A stretch of DNA of 32,147 nt from Candidatus Igneacidithiobacillus taupoensis (GCA_021375695.1 JAEPKX010000023.1:1-32147); one strand, 5' to 3'; counted from the first letter of the stretch, positions 3,403-16,256 are shown. Program-made: numbers and translations. The notes: a model not told the origin generated them from the sequence alone.

Positions 3403-4674
3403 GTGGCTTCAACCCTCCAGCCCCACCGCGTTCCACCAGGATGGCTGCGGCGCTGGTGGTGTACCTCCTGGGCCTTACAAAAAGAGGCTCCCGTTGCTTT
3501 CGTGTTTCTTTCGGGCTTACTGATTCTCCTCAATATGAGCCGGCAACCCCTCATTCTGACCATCCCCTTTGCTTGTCTGGAGGTGGCGCTGATTTATGCA
3601 ACCGCCATGACGGTGGAACTGGGGGGATGGGAAATTCGCGATGTTTTGCATGGCTTTCGCCAACTTCCCTGGCTTCCCCTCCTCCGACTGGTACTCAGCA
3701 TCGCCGCTTTGGTATTGATCATCCTGATCTTTCTTTGGACCTTGCGTCATTATTTACAGGGCATTCTGCAGCAGGACCATATCTCTTCGGCAGCCACCCT
3801 GAAGCAACTGCATACCAGTTACTGGCAAAGAATGCCCTTATGGCTCAAGCATCTGCTCAGTAACAGCCTGGGTAATGCCCAAACTTTACTTGGAAATGTC
3901 TTTTTGATGTTGTCCGTTGGCGCTGTGGTCCTGGGTTTGGTCCAACAAGGGTTCCTGGCGCTGCTGGCCGGTTTTCTGGCGGTTCTTCGCAATGTCCAGA
4001 TCTGGTTGGTCTTTTTGCTCTCTAGCCTGCTGCTGCAGGGCTTGGTTTCCTATCTGGCGCAGGTCTTGCGTAGTCCTGCTGCTGCTGCTCTGGTAGCTGC
4101 TCTCTCGGCCTTGCTGCTCCTCTGGGTTGGCCTCTTTGGTTGGTGTTTTGCCAAAGAAGCTTTTGGCCTTCCCCGTAGCCGCGCTCCCCAGCGCTTGCGT
4201 CAAGGTGCTCGACGCCTGCATCCCGCTGTTTCCAGCAGCCGTGCTGCTTACCGGGCTGGCTTGAGCAGCTGTAGATGGAACGGTCTTGATCACGCCGGGG
4301 CCGACACCTGGCGGTGGTGGGTTTCGATAACCCATCCGGTACAACTCGCGCAGCACCCCCTGCATCAAGGCCTGGGCTCCGTCCCAGGTCAAGTGGACCT
4401 GATCGGCCACAAAATAGGATGGATGGTTGGCGCTCATCCGATCCCAGTGCAACAGGGTAATATTGGGGTACTTCGCCGCTGCCCGGTCATACAAGGAACG
4501 GACCTCATTTTCCCAGGGGCGGGGAACGGCAGGAACGATCAACAAAATTTTGCGATTCCCAACTGCCTGGACAAAATTTTCCAGATCGGACCACTGGACA
4601 TAACCATTACTGCCCAGTTCAACCACCACATACCGGACATGGGCACAGGCAGGGTCCTGCAACAAAAGCTGTAA
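3403..4674 (+). CDS. Multi-pass membrane protein of unknown family, C-terminal half doubtful
   Basis: GTG 3403 directly follows the xseA stop, with GGAGGAA (3387-3393) at a good distance, so the start is well supported and coupled to xseA. Residues 1-250 form a convincing polytopic membrane protein with hydrophobic stretches at about 31-45, 50-70, 92-113, 163-195, 198-222 and 226-248. I do not recognise the family. From about residue 252 (base 4155) the product becomes Arg-rich and irregular and lies opposite the SGNH domain of the reverse-strand acyltransferase, so the last ~170 residues look like an antisense shadow. No in-frame stop occurs before 4674. Either the gene lost its stop or a frameshift near 4150 hides it: one alternative frame meets TAG at 4176-4178. 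Confidence 0.6.
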   Translation: MASTLQPHRVPPGWLRRWWCTSWALQKEAPVAFVFLSGLLILLNMSRQPLILTIPFACLEVALIYATAMTVELGGWEIRDVLHGFRQLPWLPLLRLVLSIAALVLIILIFLWTLRHYLQGILQQDHISSAATLKQLHTSYWQRMPLWLKHLLSNSLGNAQTLLGNVFLMLSVGAVVLGLVQQGFLALLAGFLAVLRNVQIWLVFLLSSLLLQGLVSYLAQVLRSPAAAALVAALSALLLLWVGLFGWCFAKEAFGLPRSRAPQRLRQGARRLHPAVSSSRAAYRAGLSSCRWNGLDHAGADTWRWWVSITHPVQLAQHPLHQGLGSVPGQVDLIGHKIGWMVGAHPIPVQQGNIGVLRRCPVIQGTDLIFPGAGNGRNDQQNFAIPNCLDKIFQIGPLDITITAQFNHHIPDMGTGRVLQQKL

Positions 4675-6171
4675 CGCCGGCAAGGCACGGAAAAAGGATC
4701 GGCCAACCTTCCCATCCAGAATCCCATTGGGAACCATGTGAATAACATAGCCCGACCAACCCAACAGAATCGAATCGGTAATAAACAGAACCTGTTTTTG
4801 GGGATAGGCGGAATTACTCCGAAATTCCTCGCCATTATAAAGGAACCCCATTGCTGGTTTGGGTTGCCATTGCAACAGATCCCCATTCTTCTTCAGGGCT
4901 TGATCAGCGTGATGGGTGGCACGCGCTTTTTCTTCAGCTGCCGCAATCGTTTTTGTACCTGCCAAAACCCGCAGGTCTTGTTCCAGACTCTTGACCCGAT
5001 TTTCCAGATATTGCCGGTACAGTGCATCATGTTGCATCTGCGCTTGCTTGCGAACATTTTCTTGTCCCAACCGGTTCGCCTGCCACCAACCGCCGCCAGC
5101 GACTGCCAACAACACCAGTGCCAATAGAAAAAAACCTTTGCTTACTCCATGGCGAGCCTGCTTGCGGAAAGCTGCCTGCAAAGGTAGCTCCAAGGACCAA
5201 TAGGATAAGATGGACAGAAAAAACAGTACCGATAGGGAAAGAAAAATCTGATTAACAACCGAGCTTTGAGAATAATAATAGTGGATGAGGGCAATAACGG
5301 GGACATTCCACAAATAAAAAGAGTAGGACATTTCGCCAAGCTTACCCAGTACTGGCAAACGCACTACCCCCAGCCATTGCGACCGTGCTGCAAAGAGCAG
5401 AAAAAGGATACCCAGACTCATGGCAGCCAGCGAGTAATAAACATAATTCTCGTAGGGAGCAAGAATGAACAGTGACAACAACAAGCAAATCGACAACAAC
5501 GCGAGACCGTCATAAACAACTTTGCCATCAGGCTTGGGCGTAGCCCAGCCTATATCTGCCAGTAGCAACCCGGCAATATAAGGAAACGCATGGGTTGGGA
5601 GTACATAGGCAGCATTGAGCTGCCCGTGATTCATGAGCCAGATAGCGCCGCCAACGCTGGCAAGAAACAACAAAAACAGCAAGATCCGGTAAACCCACCG
5701 CCACGGCAGCAGGTTGCGCAACAAAAAGTGCAGCAGATATAATTGTCCCAAAAGGGAAATAAACCACATCCCCAGAAAAGGGTGCGGATAACCATAAATC
5801 TGGAAATAGGAAACATGATGGAAGGCTAGGTAAAAGTTATAGCCCAAACTCACCGAGTACCAAACAGATTCCCAGCCAACAAGAAGATGGGTTGCCCAAA
5901 AAATCCCGGCAACAATGGCTGTCACTACCACCATGGGTACCCAAATACGCGAAAACCGTCTGCTGAAGAAATCTTGCAAACGACGGGAAAAAGGCCATTC
6001 TTGAGCCCTTCCCAAGGATTTTTCGATCAAGAAGCCCGAAAGCAGCAGGAAGATATCGACACCTAGATAGCCACCAGAAAACCATGGGAAATCAAACGTG
6101 ATGGTATCATGCACATGGAAAGCGATGACCGCCAGAATAGCCAGAAACTTCACATAATCAAGATAAAGCAT
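3886..6171 (-). CDS. Membrane O-acyltransferase fused to an SGNH esterase domain (OafA-like, 761 aa)
   Basis: Residues 1-335 form an Acyltransferase_3 membrane domain: the start LDYVKFLAILAVIAFHVHD carries the family's early His, GVDIFLLLSGFLI follows, and about ten helices are visible. A last helix at about 346-362 leads to a coiled linker (370-430) and a periplasmic SGNH domain (about 458-612). Its signature residues are S467 in TDS, G490 in VGR, N522 in GSNG and D590/H593 in DQVH. Relatives such as OafA transfer acyl, usually acetyl, groups to LPS, exopolysaccharide or peptidoglycan. The gene follows the paralogous SGNH lipoprotein gene by 20 bases; its own ribosome site is weak. Residues 616-761 are a low-complexity Pro/Ser/Thr then Gln/Lys/Glu-rich tail, and the last ~88 lie antisense to transmembrane helices of the plus-strand gene, so that part is doubtful. 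Confidence 0.85.
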   Translation of the reverse strand: MLYLDYVKFLAILAVIAFHVHDTITFDFPWFSGGYLGVDIFLLLSGFLIEKSLGRAQEWPFSRRLQDFFSRRFSRIWVPMVVVTAIVAGIFWATHLLVGWESVWYSVSLGYNFYLAFHHVSYFQIYGYPHPFLGMWFISLLGQLYLLHFLLRNLLPWRWVYRILLFLLFLASVGGAIWLMNHGQLNAAYVLPTHAFPYIAGLLLADIGWATPKPDGKVVYDGLALLSICLLLSLFILAPYENYVYYSLAAMSLGILFLLFAARSQWLGVVRLPVLGKLGEMSYSFYLWNVPVIALIHYYYSQSSVVNQIFLSLSVLFFLSILSYWSLELPLQAAFRKQARHGVSKGFFLLALVLLAVAGGGWWQANRLGQENVRKQAQMQHDALYRQYLENRVKSLEQDLRVLAGTKTIAAAEEKARATHHADQALKKNGDLLQWQPKPAMGFLYNGEEFRSNSAYPQKQVLFITDSILLGWSGYVIHMVPNGILDGKVGRSFFRALPALQLLLQDPACAHVRYVVVELGSNGYVQWSDLENFVQAVGNRKILLIVPAVPRPWENEVRSLYDRAAAKYPNITLLHWDRMSANHPSYFVADQVHLTWDGAQALMQGVLRELYRMGYRNPPPPGVGPGVIKTVPSTAAQASPVSSTAAGNSGMQASSTLTQALGSAATGKAKSFFGKTPTKEANPEEQQGRESSYQSSSSRTTQDLRQIGNQALQQQAREQKDQPDLDIAKNRQKTGQQRQEPLLDQTQDHSANGQHQKDISK

Positions 6172-6191
6172 AGTAGATTGCCTACAATTAT

Positions 6192-6941
6192 TTAGGATGA
6201 CTTGGCAGTAATCACTTTCTCAAGATCTTCAGCAATGGCTTGGACCATCACCTGAATACCCAGCCAGTTGGGATGGACCCGATCCGCCCAGAAATAATTG
6301 GGATGATTCTTGCTTAACAAATCCCAGCGGACAAGGTGAACATTGGCATGGGTGGCAGCAACCTGTAAGTAGAGTTTTTGCACTTCCGGTTCCCATGGGC
6401 GTGGCATTTCCGGCATTACCAGGAACACTTGACGATCTCCCACCAAATGCAAAAAGGTCTGCATATCTTGCGGAGATACTGCTCCGTTGGTTCCCAGTTC
6501 AACGATCACATAGCCAACTCGATGGGTCATGGCGGTTTGTTGGAGAGTTCGCCATATGGGAATGATCGCGGAAAACTGTCTACCCACCCGACCATCAATC
6601 AATGCATTGGGAAAAACATGGGCAAAATAGCCAGACCAGCCGGTCACGATACTATCGCCAATGATAATCAAGCCCGTGGGACCTAATTTGGGAAAAAGGA
6701 TCACAGAATTTGCATCCAACACATATCCCGGATCAGGACTCTGCAAAAAATTCTTGCGGGCATCGACAATTGCCATCCGATCCAGATAACGCTCTGACTT
6801 AGGCTTGCTGGGAACGGGTGTGGGTACAGTGCTGCTGACTGGGGGTGATGGAGGGATGGAAACGGGTATATTCTGGGCGCAGGAGGTGAGCGATAAGATT
6901 GCTGCGCCCAACAGGAGACGAGTCCAGGTACGAAGGTTCAT
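6192..6941 (-). CDS. SGNH-hydrolase lipoprotein, paralog of the downstream fused domain
   Basis: The N-terminus is a lipoprotein signal: basic MNLRTWTR, a hydrophobic core, then the lipobox LTSC with the acylated Cys at 21. A Pro/Ser/Thr-rich tether (22-48) leads to an SGNH fold with S97 in GDS, G120 in RVGR, N152 in GTN and D220/H223 in DRVH. Cys+2 is Gln, which favours outer-membrane sorting. The protein aligns along its length with the C-terminal domain of the next gene (shared WSGY, DG-VGR, MPRPWE/VPRPWE, NHP-YF-AD-VH), so the two arose by duplication. Likely an esterase or O-acyl transferase acting on envelope glycans. I chose ATG 6941 because the signal peptide starts cleanly there; a TTG at 6965 is possible, and neither has a good ribosome site. 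It starts 35 bases after the PilZ gene. Confidence 0.8.
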   Translation of the reverse strand: MNLRTWTRLLLGAAILSLTSCAQNIPVSIPPSPPVSSTVPTPVPSKPKSERYLDRMAIVDARKNFLQSPDPGYVLDANSVILFPKLGPTGLIIIGDSIVTGWSGYFAHVFPNALIDGRVGRQFSAIIPIWRTLQQTAMTHRVGYVIVELGTNGAVSPQDMQTFLHLVGDRQVFLVMPEMPRPWEPEVQKLYLQVAATHANVHLVRWDLLSKNHPNYFWADRVHPNWLGIQVMVQAIAEDLEKVITAKSS

Positions 6942-6976
6942 AAAATGATCTGTCAAAGAGGTCAATGGCTCGTAAA

Positions 6977-7717
6977 TCAGGCTACTGGACCAAGAATCCC
7001 TTGAAAAAACGCAGCCATGCTTTGAACGTCCTGATTTTTATGAAACTGAAAAGCAAAACCCAGAAGGATAAAACCGGAGGGTTCAGTCCCATTGAGCGTG
7101 TGGTTTTCAGACAAATTCCTGAAGATGGTCTTTCTGCGCAAAACAGCTTCTCCCTGCCAACTTGTACCATTCCCTCGATGTAGTAGAACCCGTCCTTCCG
7201 ACCCCTCCTCACAAGCAAAAGCAGGCCCTTGTGCAATGCCAGTGGAAACAAAAATACTTGCCAAAAAGCCACCCAAACTAATATCTATTACATCTCCAGA
7301 AATTGTTTGTACATTGGACGATGGTTGCCAAATAGCCTGCACTGGCTCTAGCAGGGTATAACGGAGATTCTGACGGTTCTTCTGCACTTGTATCTGCTCT
7401 GGATATCCATATGTCCAGACCAGATTCCCTTCGGGTTTTCCATCATGAAGCAAAAAATGGGCAGAACGTTCTGATTGATACAGTGATACCAGAATGTTTG
7501 ACCGGTTTTGCCCCTCTTCGGTAAAGGCAAGTTGCATTCGATCGACGCCCAAGCGTTCGATTCTGGCAGTGGAACTTTTACCCCCAGCTACATCAGACAC
7601 TGCCAAACCTTGGCCGGAAGCCTGCAATTGCAACAGGAATTCGGTTACTGCCCGTCCACGCAGCGAGCCAGACGCAGCCAGCCGCCCATCCATTTCCTTC
7701 TCCACCATGGCCGACAT
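6977..7717 (-). CDS. PilZ-domain c-di-GMP receptor, YcgR-like (246 aa)
   Basis: A two-domain protein. A YcgR-like N-terminal region covers about 20-112, followed by a PilZ domain (about 113-235) with both c-di-GMP contact motifs: RQNLR (R115-R119) and DISLGG (D145-G150). YcgR proteins bind c-di-GMP and slow flagellar rotation at the stator/rotor interface. The location directly downstream of fliL-motA-motB supports this role, and the SGNH and acyltransferase genes that follow make control of surface glycan modification a second possibility. GGAG and AGGA precede ATG 7717. It lies 119 bases after motB with no convincing terminator between. The PilZ call is firm; the partner is inferred. Confidence 0.85.
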   Translation of the reverse strand: MSAMVEKEMDGRLAASGSLRGRAVTEFLLQLQASGQGLAVSDVAGGKSSTARIERLGVDRMQLAFTEEGQNRSNILVSLYQSERSAHFLLHDGKPEGNLVWTYGYPEQIQVQKNRQNLRYTLLEPVQAIWQPSSNVQTISGDVIDISLGGFLASIFVSTGIAQGPAFACEEGSEGRVLLHRGNGTSWQGEAVLRRKTIFRNLSENHTLNGTEPSGFILLGFAFQFHKNQDVQSMAAFFQGILGPVA

Positions 7718-7836
7718 GATCCTAGACTCCAGAAAAACAAGGGGGTTGGCGCAACAAAGGCTAAGGCCTTACCCTTTGTGAAAATAACACAAGGTGGGCC
7801 GCAGGAAAATCAGGAATTGGCCGAATCTTTCGTGTT

Positions 7837-8772
7837 CTACGGGTGCTGCGCAACCTTGGCACCCTGGACCGTATCCTGTGCCGCCGCAATCGTACTGACA
7901 TCCTGGACAGCTTGTTGATTTTGAATAATCCGGGTGGCGGCAGCCTGGCTCAAGACCACGATAGTCACCCGACGGTTGAGCGGCGAGTCAGGGTTCTGCC
8001 GATCATACAGGACCGCTGAACCCATACCCACAACCCGCAGAACCTTATCCTCTTGCAGACCATGCTGCACCAGGATTTGCCGGACAGCGTTGGCTCGACC
8101 TGCCGAAAGATTGAAATTGCTGTATCCCTTTCCATCATTGAGATAACGCAAGGCATCGGTGTGACCCGTAATACTCACCCGGTTTGGAAGGGTATTGAGG
8201 GTTGGGGCAATGGCCGCAAAAATCTGTTGGGCGTATGGCTCCAACTTTGTGCTGCCATTGGGAAACATCGGTCTTTTTGCACTGTCTACCACCTGGATTC
8301 GCAAGCCCTCTGGGGTAATATTGATGAGCAACTGTTTACGAAATAGCGATAGTGTCGGATTACTGGCTATCTGTTCTGCAAGCTTTACTTTGAGGGCCTG
8401 CAAGTGCTGCAGATCGATTTCTTGGGCATGCACGCTTTGGGCCTCTGCACTTGGTAACACCTGTTGCTTTTGCCCACGCTGGACCTCCCCGACAGTCTTG
8501 TTGAGATTACTGCCCCCACCTTTCAGAATGGAATTGGAAGATCCTGTGCCAGGCCCGCCCATTAGAGAAACCATCTCTGGATTTTTGAACCAATTGGCAA
8601 TTCCCTGCAAAGTCGCTTTGGTAGTAGAACCCAAAAGCCACATCAGCAAAAAAAATGCCATAAGGGCAGTAATAAAATCGGCATAGGCAATCTTCCATGC
8701 CCCACCATGACCTCCCCCTCCCCGTTTGATGCGTTTAATAACAATGGGTTTGTCATTGTGCGCTTCGGACAT
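7837..8772 (-). CDS. motB: Flagellar motor stator protein MotB
   Basis: MotB anchors the stator to peptidoglycan and carries the ion-binding acid. The single N-terminal transmembrane helix contains AYADFITALMAFFLLMW, with the essential aspartate at D32, the same number as in E. coli. A plug/linker region follows, then an OmpA-type peptidoglycan-binding domain (about 160-290) with SITGHTDA, NLSAGRANAV and NRRVTIVV. At 311 aa the length is normal. Its ATG lies three bases after the motA stop, so the two are translated together as a MotA4-MotB2 proton channel in the inner membrane. The other flagellar genes are not in this window. Confidence 0.97.
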   Translation of the reverse strand: MSEAHNDKPIVIKRIKRGGGGHGGAWKIAYADFITALMAFFLLMWLLGSTTKATLQGIANWFKNPEMVSLMGGPGTGSSNSILKGGGSNLNKTVGEVQRGQKQQVLPSAEAQSVHAQEIDLQHLQALKVKLAEQIASNPTLSLFRKQLLINITPEGLRIQVVDSAKRPMFPNGSTKLEPYAQQIFAAIAPTLNTLPNRVSITGHTDALRYLNDGKGYSNFNLSAGRANAVRQILVQHGLQEDKVLRVVGMGSAVLYDRQNPDSPLNRRVTIVVLSQAAATRIIQNQQAVQDVSTIAAAQDTVQGAKVAQHP

Positions 8773-8775
8773 GGT

Positions 8776-9636
8776 TTATTTGCCCTTCAGTTCGCGAAGG
8801 TGATTGTCCAGCTCTTGAAAACTGGGCCGTTCCGTAGAATAGAGCACTTTGCGCCCGAATTCTACGGCCACTTGGGGTGGATAGGCATTCATAGTAGCAA
8901 GCAAGGCTACTTTGACGCATTCCAACATTTTGCTACTCTCGGCAGCCCGATCTTCCATGCGGGCGGCGATGGGAGAAACCACGGCATATCCCAGCAGGAT
9001 GCCCAAAAAAGTACCCACCAATGCGGCCGCAATGAGCTCGCCCAGTACCGCTGGCGGCTTGTCTACGGAGCTCATCACATTCACCACACCCATCACCGCA
9101 GCCACAATACCAAAAGCAGGCATCCCATCGGCAGCGCGAGTCAGAGCGTGGATTGGGACCTCCAGTTCGCGATGATGGGTGTCAATTTCCACATCCATGA
9201 GATTTTCCATTTCAAAAGCACCCAATGTTCCGCCAATCATCAAACGAAGATAATCCGTCAAGAATTCCATAACGTGATGATCAGCAAGAATAGTAGGATA
9301 TTTCTTGAATAACTCACTATTTTGTGGCTCATCCACATCTGCTTCAATGGACATAAGCCCGCCCTGACGGATCTTCCCAAAGACTTCATTGAGCAGACTC
9401 AAGAGCTCCATATACACTACACGCGAATATTTGGATCCTTTCAATGCCATGGGTAATGATTTCAGTACTGCCTTAAAACTACGGGGAAAGGTCGACGCAA
9501 AAAAGGCACCAAAGGCACCACCAGCAATCATCAAAAACTCAAACGGCTGAATAAGGGCGGTGATTTTGCCACCTTCCAGGACAAAACCGCCAAAGATAGC
9601 TCCCAAGGCAATGACATAACCAATCAGCAGAAACAT
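8776..9636 (-). CDS. motA: Flagellar motor stator protein MotA
   Basis: MotA is the four-helix stator subunit that converts ion flow into torque against FliG. The residues known from E. coli fall at the same numbers here: R90 and E98 in the cytoplasmic loop, and the prolines P173 and P222 in helices 3 and 4. At 286 aa it matches the usual ~295 residues. AGAGG lies eight bases before the ATG. It sits 12 bases after fliL and three bases before motB, a compact stator operon. The MotA/MotB sequence type suggests proton rather than sodium coupling. Confidence 0.97.
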   Translation of the reverse strand: MFLLIGYVIALGAIFGGFVLEGGKITALIQPFEFLMIAGGAFGAFFASTFPRSFKAVLKSLPMALKGSKYSRVVYMELLSLLNEVFGKIRQGGLMSIEADVDEPQNSELFKKYPTILADHHVMEFLTDYLRLMIGGTLGAFEMENLMDVEIDTHHRELEVPIHALTRAADGMPAFGIVAAVMGVVNVMSSVDKPPAVLGELIAAALVGTFLGILLGYAVVSPIAARMEDRAAESSKMLECVKVALLATMNAYPPQVAVEFGRKVLYSTERPSFQELDNHLRELKGK

Positions 9637-9648
9637 GGGGAAAGCCTC

Positions 9649-10161
9649 TTACTGCACCACAAAACTACTGAAATAGGCGGCAACGATAGGTGGGTTTGCT
9701 TGCGGCGCAGCCCCGGTGAGGGTTCCTCCATCGGTCAGTAAGATTTTGTTTACATCCTGTTGGATAGCCTGTAAAAGCCGATCCCTGGCCGCTGGATCGC
9801 TCACTTTATCTGCTTGCTGCGCGGCAAGTAGCTGGAGGATTTGATTCCGAATTTCCGGCATAAAATCCTTGATCTTTTCACCAACTTTTGGATCGTAGGT
9901 CTTCAATTCCACGTCCACCTGAATATAGTGTGTGCCACCATCGGTGCTCTGTAGGTTGGTCACCAAAGACCCCAGATTGATAAACTTCGTATTCTTTACC
10001 CGATCCTCTGCCTGCTGTTGCGCCAAAGCAGCCTTGCTGGGAGCGCTTTGGGACCCCAAAAGAAACCACCAGGCAGCCCCAGCCGCAATAACCAAAAGCA
10101 AGATTCCAATGATCACCCAAAGGATCCATTTACTTTTTCCCGCCTTTTTCGCTTCAGACAT
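9649..10161 (-). CDS. fliL: Flagellar basal body-associated protein FliL
   Basis: FliL is a single-pass inner-membrane protein that rings and stabilises the stator and affects torque. The sequence has a basic N-terminus (MSEAKKAGKSKW), one membrane helix at about 13-36, a short linker and a periplasmic domain with YIQVDVELKTYD, the typical FliL core, ending near SFVVQ. At 170 aa it has normal length. The position directly before motA is informative, because fliL is more often beside fliM; here it is grouped with the stator genes. The ribosome site is modest (AGGAAAAGAG some distance upstream). Confidence 0.9.
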   Translation of the reverse strand: MSEAKKAGKSKWILWVIIGILLLVIAAGAAWWFLLGSQSAPSKAALAQQQAEDRVKNTKFINLGSLVTNLQSTDGGTHYIQVDVELKTYDPKVGEKIKDFMPEIRNQILQLLAAQQADKVSDPAARDRLLQAIQQDVNKILLTDGGTLTGAAPQANPPIVAAYFSSFVVQ

Positions 10162-10202
10162 AGTCGATTACTCTTTTCCTTCGTCATTCAGGCTGATTGC
10201 CA

Positions 10203-10595
10203 TCAGCGTGCCAATGCCAAAATATCCAGAGGCTCACTCCCCGCAGCCAGCGATGGCCCAGAAAGCCGCTCGATCGCCGCAAGTATGGCGGGACAACTCG
10301 ACAGACTGGTAGGATCAGCAAAGATCCGTGCCTGGGCCAAGCGCAGCAATAACAATCTATATAGTCGATCGGCAAGTTCTTGCCGCTCTTTTGACCACTC
10401 TCCAGGTAATTGACAAAGTTGATGGGAAATCACTCGTTCGGCATGGGCCAATCCCGGCCAGGGCTCCTCTAGACCATTTGCAGGAGAAGTTCGAATCTTT
10501 CTTAGAAGTAAACGAATGACCAACACACCAAAGGGCAGCGGTGGTGCTACCTTGCTCTGCGGCAACGGACCAGAAGATGATGTAAAAAGACTCAT
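10203..10595 (-). CDS. Hypothetical protein at the head of the fliL-motAB operon (130 aa)
   Basis: I do not recognise this protein. ATG 10595 is preceded by GCAGGTG at about four bases; a start further upstream at 10622 would add nine residues and has less support. The N-terminal third is Pro/Ser-rich and probably disordered; residues from about 45 on are helical and Leu/Ala/Arg-rich (QELADRLYRLLLLRLAQ). There is no signal peptide and no clear membrane helix. It ends 41 bases before fliL on the same strand, so co-transcription with the stator genes is likely and a motor-associated role is possible. The coding evidence is position and ribosome site only. Confidence 0.55.
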   Translation of the reverse strand: MSLFTSSSGPLPQSKVAPPLPFGVLVIRLLLRKIRTSPANGLEEPWPGLAHAERVISHQLCQLPGEWSKERQELADRLYRLLLLRLAQARIFADPTSLSSCPAILAAIERLSGPSLAAGSEPLDILALAR

Positions 10596-10628
10596 GGCAC
10601 ACCTGCAAGGTTTTGCTATCATTCACCC

Positions 10629-10655
10629 GTAACGGCACATCCCTGGCGTTTCTTG
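10629..10655 (-). promoter_or_regulatory. Tentative sigma-28-like promoter for the stator operon
   Basis: Reading the minus strand, CAAG (10655-10652), a 15-base gap and GCCGTTAC (10636-10629) match the flagellar sigma-28 pattern TAAA-N15-GCCGATAA at 2/4 and 6/8 positions. It lies 34 bases before the start of the first gene of the fliL-motAB unit. The -35 part is weak. Confidence 0.3.
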
Positions 10656-10725
10656 AATGGCAAAGACGATCTGCCATGGGCACGATTCATGCTTGTAAAC
10701 GGTAGTTCAGCCGTGAGGAACCCCC

Positions 10726-11625
10726 ATGACAACCCAAAGACAGTCGATTCAAGAGGCAGCTGCCAGCAAATTCGCAGATCAAGACTCGTATTCCGCAGAT
10801 CTTCAAGAGCTGATCACGAGTTGGGAAGATTACTGGGCAACGTGGCTTGCTTTGCGGGACACAACCGTTGCCCAGGCTCGATTCCTACGCGCCCTTCATG
10901 ACCCGGAATCCCGGATTCCCATTGAATTTCAAAACGATTGGCTTACACTCGAACAACAAGGCCATGATCTTCTACACCTACTGGAAACGACCAAACTGTC
11001 AAATAACCGACGCTCGGATCTTTTCCACCAGGCTGTCGAAACAGCTATATCCTACCAACGCCAAATCAGAGAGCTCCTGCTGAAACAGCAGCAAAACCTT
11101 GGCGACCTGGATCCAGTAACCGGACTCCCCAATCGACGTCGTCTCAGCCAAGATCTGGAGCGCGAACTGGCCCGTATCCAACGGGGTGCTGGAGCCTGCG
11201 TTGCCATGATTGATCTGGACCATTTCAAAGCATTCAATGATCACCATGGTCACTTCGCTGGAGACGAAGCCCTTGCCGCCTTTGCCGCCTTTCTCCAGCA
11301 ATCTCTTCGCCCCTATGATGGAGTATATCGCTATGGCGGTGAGGAATTCGTGCTTCTTCTACCCGGCATGACGGGGGCTTCTGCTTCGCGATGTGGAAGT
11401 CGGCTTTGCGCTCAACTGGCAAGCACCCAATTCCATCTTGCCAATGGCACACCCTATGCTCTGACTATGTCGATGGGTATTACGCCCTTATCCGCCAATA
11501 CATCCAAAGATACAGCATTAGTCCTGGCTGATCGTGCTTTGTACCAAGCCAAAACTGCGGGACGAAATCAGGCAGTCTTTTACCAGGACACTTCCGCTGC
11601 GGGCCGCGGCTTCGTAACATCCTAA
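10726..11625 (+). CDS. GGDEF diguanylate cyclase with I-site (299 aa)
   Basis: Diguanylate cyclases make c-di-GMP from two GTP. Residues about 128-290 form the GGDEF domain: DPVTGLPNRR, the metal-binding MIDLDHFKAFND, and the active-site signature GGEEF (204-208). A product-inhibition site RPYD (195-198) sits exactly five residues before GGEEF, so feedback control is expected. The first ~125 residues are helical and soluble with no transmembrane segment; I do not recognise this sensory region. GAGGAA lies a few bases before ATG 10726. The gene diverges from the stator operon and is followed six bases later by a second cyclase gene. Catalytic residues look intact. Confidence 0.93.
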   Translation: MTTQRQSIQEAAASKFADQDSYSADLQELITSWEDYWATWLALRDTTVAQARFLRALHDPESRIPIEFQNDWLTLEQQGHDLLHLLETTKLSNNRRSDLFHQAVETAISYQRQIRELLLKQQQNLGDLDPVTGLPNRRRLSQDLERELARIQRGAGACVAMIDLDHFKAFNDHHGHFAGDEALAAFAAFLQQSLRPYDGVYRYGGEEFVLLLPGMTGASASRCGSRLCAQLASTQFHLANGTPYALTMSMGITPLSANTSKDTALVLADRALYQAKTAGRNQAVFYQDTSAAGRGFVTS

Positions 11626-11630
11626 ATACC

Positions 11631-13178
11631 ATGACTTCGCAAGATCTCGCTTCTGTCATCCTGCAACAACTTGCCGAGCGAGGGCTTGCTCCTGATCCTG
11701 ACAATTACCGTATGCTCTACGAGGAGCTGGTTGCAGGAAAGAAGGAATCCAATTCTTCTTCGGCAAAGTGGTCGGAGGTCCTTCCCCAGTTCATTGCCCA
11801 GTGGGAGCGCTGCCAACTAGGGCTGAGTCATCTGCAAAAACTGCAACAACGTCAGCAAGCCCTGCAGGCAGGAAACCCAACCCAAATTCTGCATGCCCTA
11901 CAAGGACTGGCAATGCGCTGGGCCGCGCTGCCCGACCGCCCTATGGAGAATTCATCCCAAGAACCAGCAATAGCAAGCACAACTCTTTCTAGCATCTGGC
12001 ATCGAGGACTGGCTGCTGGTTTTCAAGTGGGTTTAGCAGGAGACAAACTTGCCCAAGAAGGAATGCAGCGCATCGAGGAACTGTTGCAGGCAAAGGAGCC
12101 CAATACAGAATTACTGATTCAGGAGTTACGCAAACTTTGGGTGCAAATGGACCATCGTGATGAAAAGGTTCATGAAATCCAGGACTATTATCAAAAAACC
12201 CTGCTCCTGCTGACTTCGAGCGCCAGAGAGCTCTTCGAAAAAGAACCGTGGCTCGGCCAGGAATTGGAAGCGCTTCGTCAATTTTTTGACGAAGCAAATC
12301 CAGCGCAGGCCCAGATGGGCTATGAAAATCTAAAAGACCTTCTTTGTCGTCAGGAACAACGGCTAGGCGCTGTGCAAGAAGCTGACCAAGCGTTGCAGGA
12401 ATTATTGCGCTTGGTTTTTGAGTACTTGGCAAGTCTGGATGAAGGCAACTGTGGCCAGGACTATCAGGAATTGTTCCGACTGAGCGAGCAGATCCAGCAA
12501 GCCGAGGATATGCAGCAGGTACAATCCCTGGCGCGAGAGCTTTTGGAGCGCAGTCAGGCGCTGCAAGACAAGCTCCATCAGTCCCATGATGCTCTCCGCA
12601 AGGCCAGGCTCCATCTAGAAAATGCCCAACGGCGCCTGCAATCCCTCGAACAGGAAATCTGCCAGCTCCATCTGCTGGTCCACGAAGATCCACTGACCAA
12701 GACCCTGAACCGTCGGGGGCTTCTGCTAGCCTTCGAACGAGAGTCTGCTCGGGCAAACCGTCAAAGCCAAGCGCTGGCAATCGCCCTACTCGATCTGGAT
12801 CACTTCAAAAAAGTCAACGATCGCTATGGACATGAAGCAGGCGACCAAGTCTTGCAGCAAGTAAGTCTTTTTCTGCAACAAGGCTTGCGGAACACGGACA
12901 TCATCGCACGCTATGGTGGGGAAGAATTTGTAATATTGATGCCCGCAACAACGGCACAAAAGGCCGTAGAAGTCCTGCAACGGGTACTACGGCAACTGCT
13001 GGAAGCACCGCTACAGATTGGAAAGCATCAGATTCCAACAAGCTTTAGTGCAGGTGTTGCGGCTTACGAACCAGGAAATACCCTGGAGAACACCTTGACC
13101 CTGGCCGACCGTGCCCTGTATGCAGCCAAGCGTGCGGGCCGGCAGCGGGTCTTTTTGAGCACCCCCAAGGAGCGATGA
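11631..13178 (+). CDS. GGDEF diguanylate cyclase with long coiled-coil N-terminus (515 aa)
   Basis: The C-terminal GGDEF domain (about 350-512) has DPLTKTLNRRG, LLDLDHFKKVND and GGEEF (429-433), with an I-site RNTD (420-423) five residues upstream. It should make c-di-GMP and be product-inhibited. The N-terminus (LQQLAERGLAPDPDNYRMLYEEL) resembles the 'L-x-PTPENY' start seen in a class of soluble proteobacterial cyclases. Residues 60-345 are Gln/Leu/Glu-rich and coiled-coil-like, suggesting dimerisation or localisation. There are no membrane helices. It starts five bases after the previous cyclase without a clear ribosome site, so translation is probably coupled. It converges on rnr across 56 bases. 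Confidence 0.93.
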   Translation: MTSQDLASVILQQLAERGLAPDPDNYRMLYEELVAGKKESNSSSAKWSEVLPQFIAQWERCQLGLSHLQKLQQRQQALQAGNPTQILHALQGLAMRWAALPDRPMENSSQEPAIASTTLSSIWHRGLAAGFQVGLAGDKLAQEGMQRIEELLQAKEPNTELLIQELRKLWVQMDHRDEKVHEIQDYYQKTLLLLTSSARELFEKEPWLGQELEALRQFFDEANPAQAQMGYENLKDLLCRQEQRLGAVQEADQALQELLRLVFEYLASLDEGNCGQDYQELFRLSEQIQQAEDMQQVQSLARELLERSQALQDKLHQSHDALRKARLHLENAQRRLQSLEQEICQLHLLVHEDPLTKTLNRRGLLLAFERESARANRQSQALAIALLDLDHFKKVNDRYGHEAGDQVLQQVSLFLQQGLRNTDIIARYGGEEFVILMPATTAQKAVEVLQRVLRQLLEAPLQIGKHQIPTSFSAGVAAYEPGNTLENTLTLADRALYAAKRAGRQRVFLSTPKER

Positions 13179-13234
13179 GGACAAATTGCAGAAAAATTGC
13201 CATTCATCCGCATTGGTAGCCCAAGACCACCTGC

Positions 13235-15466
13235 TCACGACTTTCTGGCACGCCTGGGTCTGGATGCCGACTCTGCCACGACGCGCTCGAACTCGATCTT
13301 GCGCTCGTCCAGATTGACCTGGACCAGACGAACGCGAATCTCGCTGCCAAGCTGGAAGATTTCTCGACTCCGTTCGCCAATGATCCGGTAATGTTGGGCA
13401 TCGAAGTGATAATAATCTGCACCCAAGGTACTGATATGCACCAGTCCCTCCACAAACACTTCCCGCAGTGCAACAAAGAGTCCAAAGCCGGTGACCCCAG
13501 TAATCATCGCGGTGTATTCCGTACCAACCTTATCCAGCATGAACTCGCACTTGAGCCATTGGACTGCATCCCGGCTTGCCTCATCGGCGCGCCGCTCGGT
13601 CATGGAGCAATGCTGGCCCAATTCTCGTAGTTCGGTCAGCGAAGGCAAAACAGCTGGGCGATTTTCTTCAGCGGCATCGAGCAACTCCTGGATGCCCCGA
13701 TGCACCAGGAGATCCGGATAGCGACGGATGGGTGAAGTAAAATGTGTATAGGCAGGAAAAGCCAAACCGAAATGTAATCCCGTTTCCACCGTGTAAAACG
13801 CCTGGGAAAGGCTGCGCAGAATGATGGTCTGAATCAAATTGGCATCCGATCGACCACGGGTACTCTCAATGATTGCCGCCAAATCAGCACTGTGGGGGCG
13901 AGCTGGCAAGCGAACCGGAACCCCCAGCTCAGCAAGAAAGCGACGCAAATCGTCGATCTTGTCCAGATTGGGCTCAGGATGCACCCGGTAGAGCATGGGA
14001 AAATTGTGGATCCGGAAAAACTGCGCCGCAGCCACATTTGCTGCCAGCATGCATTCCTCGATCATGCGATGCGCAACATTGCGTTGCAGGGCAACTATGC
14101 TCTCAATACGTCCTTGTTCGTTATAGATTATCCGGCTTTCCTGGGTATCGAACTCAATGGTTCCGCGCAGCTCACGGGCTCGGGCCAGGGCCTGATAAAG
14201 CTCATGAAGGGTTTCCAGATGGGGAACCAGCTCCGCTTCCTGGCTGCGGAGTTCGGGGTCACCAGCCACGATGGCGGCTACTTCGTCATAGGTGAAGCGG
14301 CGGTGAGAACGCATCACCCCTCGCCCAAAACGAAAGCGCTCCATCTCCCCCGTCGCTGCAATCTCCATCTCGCAGACCATGCAGAGTCGATCCACCTGTG
14401 GATTCAGGGAGCAAAGACCATTGGAAAGGATTTCTGGCAGCATGGGAATGACGCGGCGGGGGAAATACACGGAATTTCCCCGTTTTCGGGCTTCCAGATC
14501 CAGTGCCGAAGCAGGGCGAACATAGGTAGCCACATCGGCAATGGCAACAAAAAGTCTAAACCCCCCCTCTTCCCGTCGTTGGGCAAAAACCGCATCGTCA
14601 AAATCCTTGGCATCGGCACCATCGATGGTTACCAACGGCAATTCGCGCAGATCCCAACGACCTTCCTTCCAGGATGCGGGAACTTCCGGGTCAAAACTGG
14701 CTGCCTCTGCGAGCACAGCATCGGGCCACTGAAAGGGTAACCCATAACTGCGCACAGCAATCTCCACTTCCATCCCAGGAGCCATATGCTCACCCAGGAT
14801 CTCCACGATGCGTCCCTCGGGAAGATTACGTCCATCGGGATATTGCTCAATTTCCAGGACTACGATTTGCCCATGTACCGGGGCCAATTCGCCGGATCCC
14901 GTCACCGCAAACTCCTGACTCAGGCGCCGGTCTTCGGGGATCACATAATGGGTTTCTCCCTCGGCGTGATAGCGACCAACCACTTGCCGGATGGCGTGCT
15001 CCAGGACACGCACCACCGCTCCTTCCAAACGTCCGCGACGATCTTCTCCAATGACCCTTCCAAGGATCAAATCACCATGAAAAACCTTTCGCATTTCCCG
15101 GGGAGAAAGAAAAAGATCTTTCCCACCATCGTCCCGGGAAAGAAAACCATAACCATCGGGGTGCGCAATGACCGAACCACGAATCAGTTCCATGGCATCA
15201 GCCAGACCATATGCGCCTTTGCGGTTGCGCAGTAATTGGCCATCGCGCTCCATCGCCCGCAAGCGTCGACGAAATGCCTCCTGGTCTTCTTCTGCAATCT
15301 GCAAGTCCTCGAGGAGATCTTCGAGCCTGGCCGGCTGCCCCAGCTCCTCCAGATACTTCATGATGTATTCTCTACTCACAATGGGCCGCTCGTATTTTTC
15401 TTTTTCCCGGTCATACATGGGGTCCTTTTCCCAGAGGGAAGGCTGAGGCGACTCTAACTCCGGCAT
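13235..15466 (-). CDS. rnr: Ribonuclease R
   Basis: RNase R is a processive 3'-5' exoribonuclease that degrades structured RNA and acts in rRNA quality control and trans-translation. Domains in order: winged helix (about 28-88), two cold-shock/OB domains (about 95-240), the RNB catalytic domain (about 270-600) with TIDGADAKDFDDAV (catalytic aspartates near 282-291), and an S1 domain (about 640-720). The short basic tail (RPRRARKS) is smaller than the Lys-rich tail of the 813-aa E. coli enzyme. I chose ATG 15466, nine bases after AGGAG; a TTG two codons earlier is less well placed. The gene is back to back with tRNA-Leu, only 38 bases away. Confidence 0.97.
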   Translation of the reverse strand: MPELESPQPSLWEKDPMYDREKEKYERPIVSREYIMKYLEELGQPARLEDLLEDLQIAEEDQEAFRRRLRAMERDGQLLRNRKGAYGLADAMELIRGSVIAHPDGYGFLSRDDGGKDLFLSPREMRKVFHGDLILGRVIGEDRRGRLEGAVVRVLEHAIRQVVGRYHAEGETHYVIPEDRRLSQEFAVTGSGELAPVHGQIVVLEIEQYPDGRNLPEGRIVEILGEHMAPGMEVEIAVRSYGLPFQWPDAVLAEAASFDPEVPASWKEGRWDLRELPLVTIDGADAKDFDDAVFAQRREEGGFRLFVAIADVATYVRPASALDLEARKRGNSVYFPRRVIPMLPEILSNGLCSLNPQVDRLCMVCEMEIAATGEMERFRFGRGVMRSHRRFTYDEVAAIVAGDPELRSQEAELVPHLETLHELYQALARARELRGTIEFDTQESRIIYNEQGRIESIVALQRNVAHRMIEECMLAANVAAAQFFRIHNFPMLYRVHPEPNLDKIDDLRRFLAELGVPVRLPARPHSADLAAIIESTRGRSDANLIQTIILRSLSQAFYTVETGLHFGLAFPAYTHFTSPIRRYPDLLVHRGIQELLDAAEENRPAVLPSLTELRELGQHCSMTERRADEASRDAVQWLKCEFMLDKVGTEYTAMITGVTGFGLFVALREVFVEGLVHISTLGADYYHFDAQHYRIIGERSREIFQLGSEIRVRLVQVNLDERKIEFERVVAESASRPRRARKS

Positions 15467-15494
15467 TGACAAAAACTCCTTTTCCTTGGATTAT
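15466..15494 (+). promoter_or_regulatory. Sigma-70 promoter of tRNA-Leu
   Basis: A perfect -35 TTGACA (15466-15471) is followed by a 17-base spacer and GATTAT (15489-15494, 4/6 to TATAAT), then GCGCGC. Such a GC-rich discriminator is typical of stringently controlled stable-RNA promoters. Transcription would begin about four bases before the tRNA. The -35 overlaps the first base of the divergent rnr start codon. On the other strand CATAAT (15495-15490) could be an overlapping -10 for rnr. Confidence 0.75.
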
Positions 15495-15504
15495 GCGCGC
15501 TATT

Positions 15505-15591
15505 GCCGAGGTGGCGGAATTGGTAGACGCGCTAGGTTCAGGTCCTAGTGAGCGAAAGCTTGTGCTGGTTCGAATCCAGTCCTCGGTACCA
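15505..15591 (+). tRNA. tRNA-Leu(CAG)
   Basis: An 87-base class II tRNA. Acceptor arms GCCGAGG and CCTCGGT pair (with a terminal G-T as in E. coli leucine tRNAs), the D arm contains GGTAGAC, and the anticodon stem CTAGG/CCTAG closes the loop TTCAGGT with anticodon CAG. The variable arm is long, the T loop is TTCGAAT, and the CCA end is encoded. It reads CUG. Confidence 0.97.
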
Positions 15592-15725
15592 TCTTCTGAG
15601 ACATACGTTTGGCTTCCATCGGTTTCGCCCCTTGCTTCATGCGGCGTACTATCTCTTAGGCTGAAACATTTGTCCAATGGCCTAGACTTGAACTTCATAG
15701 TAGCAGACGAGCAGCACCGTACATC

Positions 15726-16256
15726 ATGAATCCAGAGATACTGTTGATTTTTACCGTGGGTACCAGTGCCTCTGGTAAATCCAGCTGGGCCCAGCGCATG
15801 CGTGCGCAATATCCGAAGCTTAGGATCGGGATTTTGGAACGTGACCAGCTTCGTCAGGGTATGCTGCAAAAAGAAAGCGGGCAAGTTTTTTCCTGGGCGC
15901 TCTGGAATGCCAAGTGGGAGCCCGCCATTCAAGAACAATGGCAAAAAGCCTTCCAGGAGAATCTCGATGGCGATGCACTCATCATCGCCGACACCCATTT
16001 AGACCCCCAACAGTTGGCGCAAGAAGCCGCCTTCGCCAGGGACCTCGGCATCCGGGAAATGGTTATCCAGTATTTTTCTGTACAACCCCTAGTGGAACTC
16101 ATTCGCCGAGATCAGGATCGGCCTTATCCGGTGGGAGCCGCGATCCTGCGAGAGCAAATTCAACGGCTGCGACCAGAAGAAGAATATTGGATGGCTCTGG
16201 AGAGCGTATTGCTGGAAACAACTTCCGGCACGAACCAGAAAGTCTTGCTATCATAA
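15726..16256 (+). CDS. P-loop ATPase/kinase, polynucleotide-kinase-like (176 aa)
   Basis: A small soluble P-loop protein. The Walker A is GTSASGKSS (residues 12-20), close to the N-terminus as in T4 polynucleotide-kinase-like and AAA_33 proteins. DALIIADTHLD (about 82-92) looks like a beta-strand with a Walker B-like or substrate-contacting acid, and IRRDQDRPYPVG (about 125-136) fits the Arg-rich lid of this group. Members phosphorylate nucleic-acid ends or small hydroxylated substrates; the substrate here cannot be told. ATG 15726 has no clear ribosome site. It is 134 bases after tRNA-Leu with no obvious terminator between, and 32 bases before the HdeD-like gene. Confidence 0.75.
   Translation: MNPEILLIFTVGTSASGKSSWAQRMRAQYPKLRIGILERDQLRQGMLQKESGQVFSWALWNAKWEPAIQEQWQKAFQENLDGDALIIADTHLDPQQLAQEAAFARDLGIREMVIQYFSVQPLVELIRRDQDRPYPVGAAILREQIQRLRPEEEYWMALESVLLETTSGTNQKVLLS

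Follow-up and report, generated by a model that had tools for sequence, protein, structure and literature searches.

An OatA-like acylation pair at a c-di-GMP and flagellar stator locus of Candidatus Igneacidithiobacillus taupoensis

c-di-GMP stops flagella and turns on exopolysaccharides. In Acidithiobacillus caldus, deletion of ACAty_c1319, a cyclase gene adjoining fliL-motAB, lowers c-di-GMP 6.6–13.75-fold, increases motility, and decreases attachment to sulfur (PMC4331095); FliL, MotAB, and two GGDEF proteins have already been proposed as one module in this species (Castro et al. 2015, PMC4331095), and fliL and motA are among its flagellar genes affected by the loss of RpoF (PMC6543871). 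MotL is a PilZ protein that stands alone and serves a single flagellar system (PMC8203827). As for wall modification, OatA-type systems are given for Gram-positive bacteria in a review (PMC6174289). An ape1 mutant of C. jejuni, whose peptidoglycan is O-acetylated in excess, swims less and forms 5.5-fold more biofilm; a disturbed contact between the stator and peptidoglycan was suggested by the authors (PMC5077204).

Here, we analyze a stretch of 32,147 nucleotides (hereafter, the window) from Candidatus Igneacidithiobacillus taupoensis (GCA_021375695.1, JAEPKX010000023.1:1-32147), which is contig C60 of a MAG (genome G000) of 1.73 Mb, 98% complete. The nearest relatives of its MotA among the named ones are those of Acidithiobacillus sp. 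YTS05 and "Candidatus Igneacidithiobacillus taiwanensis", which places the genome in Igneacidithiobacillus (Acidithiobacillaceae); in the FlhA tree, the window's genome is the first branch among the flagellated Igneacidithiobacillus sampled.

The c-di-GMP and stator core

The minus strand carries, in the 5'-to-3' direction, genes for the FliS-like protein, FliL, MotA, MotB, the PilZ protein, the SGNH lipoprotein, and the AT3-SGNH protein, with intergenic gaps of 41, 12, 3, 119, 11, and 20 bp, respectively; two diguanylate cyclase genes on the plus strand diverge from this unit (Table 1). All nine ORFs claimed by a preceding sequence-only reading of the window are present, coordinates included. 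The genes on its list stand, the label "hypothetical" for the first of them probably does not, and its acylation genes are refined to the OatA type. MotA and MotB score above the curated NCBIfam equivalog cut-offs (TIGR03818, 378.8 bits against 303.8, and NF006548, 353.6 against 277, respectively), and FliL matches PF03748 with E 1.6e-20. Both cyclases retain an intact active-site motif and RxxD I-site, and cyclase 1 is the positional counterpart of A. caldus ACAty_c1319.

Table 1. Features of the locus (positions are those of the window).
Feature	Position	Strand	Basis or remark
AT3-SGNH protein, OatA-like, 761 aa	3886..6171	-	AT3 membrane domain ~2-322, SGNH domain ~461-613, tail unconserved
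Probable read-through tail of the AT3-SGNH ORF	3886..4235	-	antisense to the conserved part of the membrane-protein gene, 3403-~4235
SGNH lipoprotein, 257 aa, lipobox LTSC	6192..6965	-	apparent detached paralog of the OatA-like SGNH domain
Two-domain PilZ protein of YcgR fold, 246 aa	6977..7717	-	RQNLR and DISLGG, predicted fold
motB	7837..8772	-	NF006548
motA	8776..9636	-	TIGR03818
fliL	9649..10161	-	PF03748
Probable divergent FliS paralog (earlier "hypothetical gene")	10203..10622	-	alternative start ATG at 10595 possible
Candidate FliA (sigma28)-like promoter TCAAGAAACGCCAGGGATGTGCCGTTA, before the fliS-like gene	10630..10656	-	similar elements in relatives
Diguanylate cyclase 1, GGEEF, I-site RPYD	10726..11625	+	PF00990 E 4.3e-41, motifs
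Diguanylate cyclase 2, GGEEF, I-site RNTD	11631..13178	+	PF00990 E 4.6e-45, motifs

The order of cyclases 2 and 1, divergent from fliS-like–fliL–motA–motB–PilZ, is kept in all six stator-bearing Igneacidithiobacillus genomes (that of the window and five others); most of the longer Acidithiobacillus loci show the same core order without this PilZ gene. The link between c-di-GMP synthesis and the stator, proposed by the sequence-only reading, is supported by this family-wide core order and by the A. caldus cyclase mutant (PMC4331095); hence, the c-di-GMP–stator half of the locus is known, not new. In one relative, G018, motA is spread over two overlapping frames (L110, 2382–3241).

The first gene of the minus-strand unit is probably a divergent FliS paralog. 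The same position in Acidithiobacillus is occupied by FliS proteins (PF02561, E 1e-14 to 3e-18), to which the window protein aligns with 19–25% identity; its own Pfam search yields no match to PF02561, and the best PDB matches of its predicted model are FliS structures, at E 0.05 only. FliA-like elements are seen at the same place, upstream of the fliS-like gene, in L027, L106, L107, L032, L034, and L036. The perfect FliA consensus has no match; the looser pattern was picked post hoc from the sequences, and thus the element at window positions 10656–10630 is a candidate only. As to the continuity of the unit, no terminator-like or sigma70-like site was found on the minus strand at 7718–7836, where the sequence-only reading had allowed for separate promoters and terminators; the promoter scan of the locus is close to chance (7 sites found, 7.7 expected).

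The PilZ protein

The protein encoded behind motB is below the threshold of the Pfam PilZ family (E 0.058). Its predicted model (pLDDT 72) matches YcgR-N (5y6h) with Z 14.3 and 2.7 A over 100 residues, and the PilZ domain (5y6g) with Z 11.6. Both c-di-GMP motifs are intact: RQNLR at position 115 (RxxxR) and DISLGG at position 145 ([D/N]xSxxG), the latter being DIGLGG, with Gly for Ser, in the same-genus orthologs. The protein has no match to PilZN or PilZNR in Pfam, which is a weak test, as the canonical YcgR of L032 itself scores E 0.044 to PilZN. The G027 gene (L106, 9310–10049) is split into two frames, by either a frameshift or a sequencing error.

The possibility that this protein is the organism's YcgR was rejected, since a better ortholog is encoded on contig C23 (10607–11401), 47–48% identical to YcgR of Acidithiobacillus, adjoining FliK and located about 4 kb from MotD. 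In addition, G024 and G025, both without MotA and FlhA, retain the PilZ gene at this locus. Hence, of the "YcgR-type brake" suggested by the sequence-only reading only the fold fits, and the role of the PilZ protein as a stator brake is unproven because of the separate YcgR ortholog elsewhere and the persistence of the PilZ gene in aflagellate relatives.

The protein might instead act as a c-di-GMP switch, either for the acylation pair or for a non-flagellar process, with the true YcgR being that of contig C23, which we regard as possible, albeit rather doubtful. The separate ortholog beside FliK and MotD, the retention of the gene in aflagellate G024 and G025, the terminal-oxidase genes adjoining the Acidithiobacillus homologs, and the distance of 11 bp to the SGNH gene, with PilZ adjoining the pair in G018 too, are consistent with such a switch; however, the model has a YcgR-like fold, the gene lies directly behind motB in 6/6 stator-bearing Igneacidithiobacillus, and stator-specific PilZ proteins exist elsewhere, one such being MotL (PMC8203827).

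Several further loci were observed in this context. The region of contig C23 at 10607–16201 (L196) encodes the canonical YcgR, a FliK-like protein, and a MotD-like stator gene, so that the genome seems to carry two stator systems. Two Igneacidithiobacillus genomes without stator and FlhA genes retain PilZ between rnr and xseA (L108, L109). The Acidithiobacillus homologs of PilZ (L114–L119) sit between terminal-oxidase genes and a glutathione-peroxidase-like gene, which suggests a non-flagellar role there.

The acylation pair, its relatives, and the junction

In the AT3-SGNH protein, the AT3 domain (PF01757, E 5.1e-25) has the motifs K8-x10-H19 and RFSR at position 72 (RxxR). Its SGNH domain matches the S. 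aureus OatA structures 6vjp and 6wn9 (E ~1e-22) and contains TDSI at 465, GSNG at 520, and DQVH at 590, so that the catalytic Ser, Asn, and Asp-His are all present. The SGNH lipoprotein matches 6wn9 with E 3.8e-26, and the profile of the lipoprotein family matches the OatA domain with E 6.5e-32; the lipoprotein has GDSI at 103, GTNG at 158, DRVH at 228, and a lipobox at 26. The next SGNH structures after OatA follow at E 0.04 and above. The AT3-SGNH protein is the sole AT3 protein of the genome, and the search of G000 for MBOAT (PF03062) gave no match; therefore, PatA is absent from this genome.

Since OatA is the nearest characterized family, the pair would, by analogy, O-acetylate peptidoglycan. 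It could also acylate another glycan of the envelope or matrix, such as LPS O-antigen, cellulose, or other exopolysaccharide, with the lipoprotein SGNH serving as an additional transferase or as an esterase on the same polymer. Exopolysaccharides are typical targets of c-di-GMP, the genome encodes a cellulose-synthase-like protein with a PilZ domain (L005), and AT3-SGNH proteins modify many glycans (PMC9558356); on the other hand, OatA is the only one of the solved SGNH transferases that the domains match, the outside relatives found are OatA-type proteins, and no glycan biosynthesis genes adjoin the pair. A substrate other than peptidoglycan is conceivable, but we consider it somewhat improbable.

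Among the relatives, G018 has the order PilZ-SGNH-AT3 about 6 kb after motB, and four Acidithiobacillus genomes (G001, G010, G011, G017) have YcgR-FliK-SGNH-AT3 downstream of motAB, with both on one contig; G009 has the latter block as well, on a contig without motAB. In other Igneacidithiobacillus, the pair is not beside PilZ, being 15 kb off in G027, 45 kb off in G023, and on another contig in G026, while the complete genome G022 shows only one weak partial match to it. Overall, the pair is near motAB or YcgR-FliK in 7/10 genomes where its position is resolved, from three lineages; in these three lineages it follows a stator and a c-di-GMP receptor, the receptor protein differing between them. 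The pair is found in 0/5 genomes without FlhA and 11/24 genomes with FlhA, both numbers being small and the genomes related. We found no paper on acyltransferase genes in Acidithiobacillus flagellar clusters, and, as far as searched, an OatA-like pair in this setting is undescribed.

A gene order found in this strain only is thereby excluded as far as the general idea is concerned (G018 and four Acidithiobacillus), although the pair lies elsewhere in three genomes of the genus and is missing from one complete genome. Similarly, the acylation genes as a part of the locus, another element of the sequence-only reading, recur downstream of motAB in two other lineages but are not beside PilZ in other Igneacidithiobacillus. 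A recent import of the pair into this strain alone is unsupported: its SGNH protein shares 74–75% identity with the copies in the same genus and clusters with them, at low support.

The 369 Gammaproteobacteria and 398 Pseudomonadota genomes sampled yielded no relatives of the pair outside this genome, the cut-offs being such that, with this profile, the S. aureus protein would exceed them. The nearest outside relatives are OatA-type proteins of Gram-positive bacteria and fusobacteria. Among plasmid records, there are matches to Listeria OatA and proteins from Enterococcus, Bacillus, Staphylococcus, Fusobacterium, and Miltoncostaea, with 27–32% identity. In the tree, the family's own SGNH domains, those of the lipoprotein as well as those of AT3-SGNH, form one group apart from three outside OatA-type sequences (98/99); therefore, the SGNH lipoprotein appears to stem from an ancient duplication of the fused SGNH domain. 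Transfer of the pair from Gram-positive bacteria is a lead rather than a result, because the outside branches are long and the Pseudomonadota sample is thin.

An SGNH fragment 62% identical to the lipoprotein is located at the start of contig C51 of the same genome, near an integrase-like ORF (L162, 738–1157). Homologs of the lipoprotein (L157, L160, L163, L205) lie near apparent mobile-element genes, e.g., phospholipase-D-like and TraF-like, and, on the A. caldus plasmid pTcM1, under an annotated N-6 DNA methylase; mobile elements may thus carry the SGNH protein.

At its other end, the pair meets a membrane-protein gene (3403–4674, plus strand) that follows xseA and converges with the AT3-SGNH gene (3886–6171, minus strand), overlapping it by 789 bp. 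The membrane-protein gene is conserved up to about 4235; the stop of its orthologs is lost, and it reads into the AT3-SGNH gene. In turn, the AT3-SGNH ORF has lost the stop of its relatives and runs for about 100–115 residues (from ~646–661 to 761) antisense to the membrane-protein gene. With tblastn, residues 658–761 match in relatives antisense to this gene, and the alignment of AT3 tails and membrane-protein orthologs supports the tail as read-through. The C-terminal ~100 residues of AT3-SGNH are thus probably read-through, because they are antisense to a conserved gene. The idea that an earlier small gene adjoining PilZ gave rise to these residues was rejected, as the match is antisense to the membrane-protein gene. 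Since both ORFs have lost the stops of their relatives and read into each other, the overlap appears to mark a rearrangement junction, formed when the pair either moved in here or moved away in others; a misassembly of the MAG contig at this point is a residual possibility.

One may ask if the pair is a passenger that landed behind motAB-PilZ by rearrangement, with no functional tie to swimming. The different sites of the pair in three same-genus genomes, the convergent ORFs reading into each other, and a possible assembly join in the MAG contig fit this explanation, which we nevertheless consider unlikely: two other lineages have the pair downstream of motAB too, separated from it by a c-di-GMP receptor, it occurs in 0/5 genomes without FlhA (five being few), and the gaps of 11 and 20 bp suggest co-transcription with PilZ.

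Proposed role and comparison with known systems

Our preferred interpretation, held tentatively and with slightly less than even confidence, is a c-di-GMP/stator locus with a recurrently attached OatA-like periplasmic acylation pair. It is favored by the conserved core order, the A. caldus cyclase mutant, the RpoF effect there together with the FliA-like elements, the position of the pair in 7/10 genomes, the OatA match with intact motifs, the lack of MBOAT and of any other AT3 protein in the genome, and the C. jejuni precedent. Against it count the positions of the pair outside flagellar loci in G023, G026, and G027, the single weak partial match in G022, the PilZ gene in aflagellate G024 and G025 and its homologs beside oxidase genes, the separate YcgR ortholog, and the rearrangement at the junction itself.

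In such a locus, a FliA-type transcript from the candidate promoter would provide the FliS paralog, FliL, and the MotA-MotB stator, and the two divergent cyclases with feedback I-sites would supply c-di-GMP beside the stator, the effect on motility being known from the A. caldus counterpart alone. The YcgR-fold PilZ protein would read c-di-GMP and act on either the stator or the acylation pair. The AT3 domain would take acyl groups from acyl-CoA in the cytoplasm and deliver them on the periplasmic side, where the fused SGNH domain and its lipoprotein copy could attach acetyl, or a different short acyl group, to a glycan of the periplasm or remove it from there; the likeliest acceptor would be MurNAc O-6 of peptidoglycan, as in OatA. 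When swimming stops, c-di-GMP would slow the motor and, purely conjecturally, the wall gripped by MotB would become resistant to lytic transglycosylases. We infer that c-di-GMP or co-transcription couples the acylation pair to swimming; a coupling of motility and acetylation is plausible because of the C. jejuni ape1 precedent (PMC5077204).

A bolder version assumes that c-di-GMP from the neighboring cyclases, read by PilZ, switches an OatA-type system that was acquired by the Acidithiobacillaceae ancestor and split into a membrane enzyme and a lipoprotein SGNH, and that, once swimming ceases, this system O-acetylates peptidoglycan and thereby hardens the wall that anchors MotB. We consider it very improbable as a whole. 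If true, it would be the first case in which c-di-GMP controls an acetylation of peptidoglycan that is coupled to the flagellar stator, would make the modification of the stator-gripped wall a new c-di-GMP output, and would place an OatA-type system in an extremely acidophilic Gram-negative bacterium. The system is small and can be tested in A. caldus, a species with a reported gene deletion; how these bacteria attach is relevant to bioleaching.

As in the A. caldus ACAty_c1319/fliL-motA-motB locus (PMC4331095), the cyclase pair diverges from fliL-motA-motB, and the first cyclase is intact with an I-site; the second cyclase, reported as degenerate there (GGDEL), is intact in the window, PilZ lies directly behind motB in the window, and the acylation genes present here go unmentioned in the A. 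caldus paper. The PilZ protein resembles YcgR, MotL, and FlgZ in the YcgR-N + PilZ fold, the RxxxR and DxSxxG motifs, and the gene adjoining the stator, but it is not the YcgR ortholog of the genome, lacks a Pfam PilZN match, and has homologs that occur without flagella. With PatA/PatB/Ape1, which O-acetylate peptidoglycan in Gram-negative bacteria, the pair shares the combination of a membrane acyl exporter and periplasmic SGNH proteins, the exporter being AT3 instead of MBOAT. Finally, the pair differs from OatA of Staphylococcus, Listeria, and others in its Gram-negative host, a substrate predicted by family only, the extra lipoprotein copy of SGNH, and the flagellar/c-di-GMP setting, while sharing with it the fusion of an AT3 membrane domain with an SGNH domain of OatA type that has all catalytic motifs.
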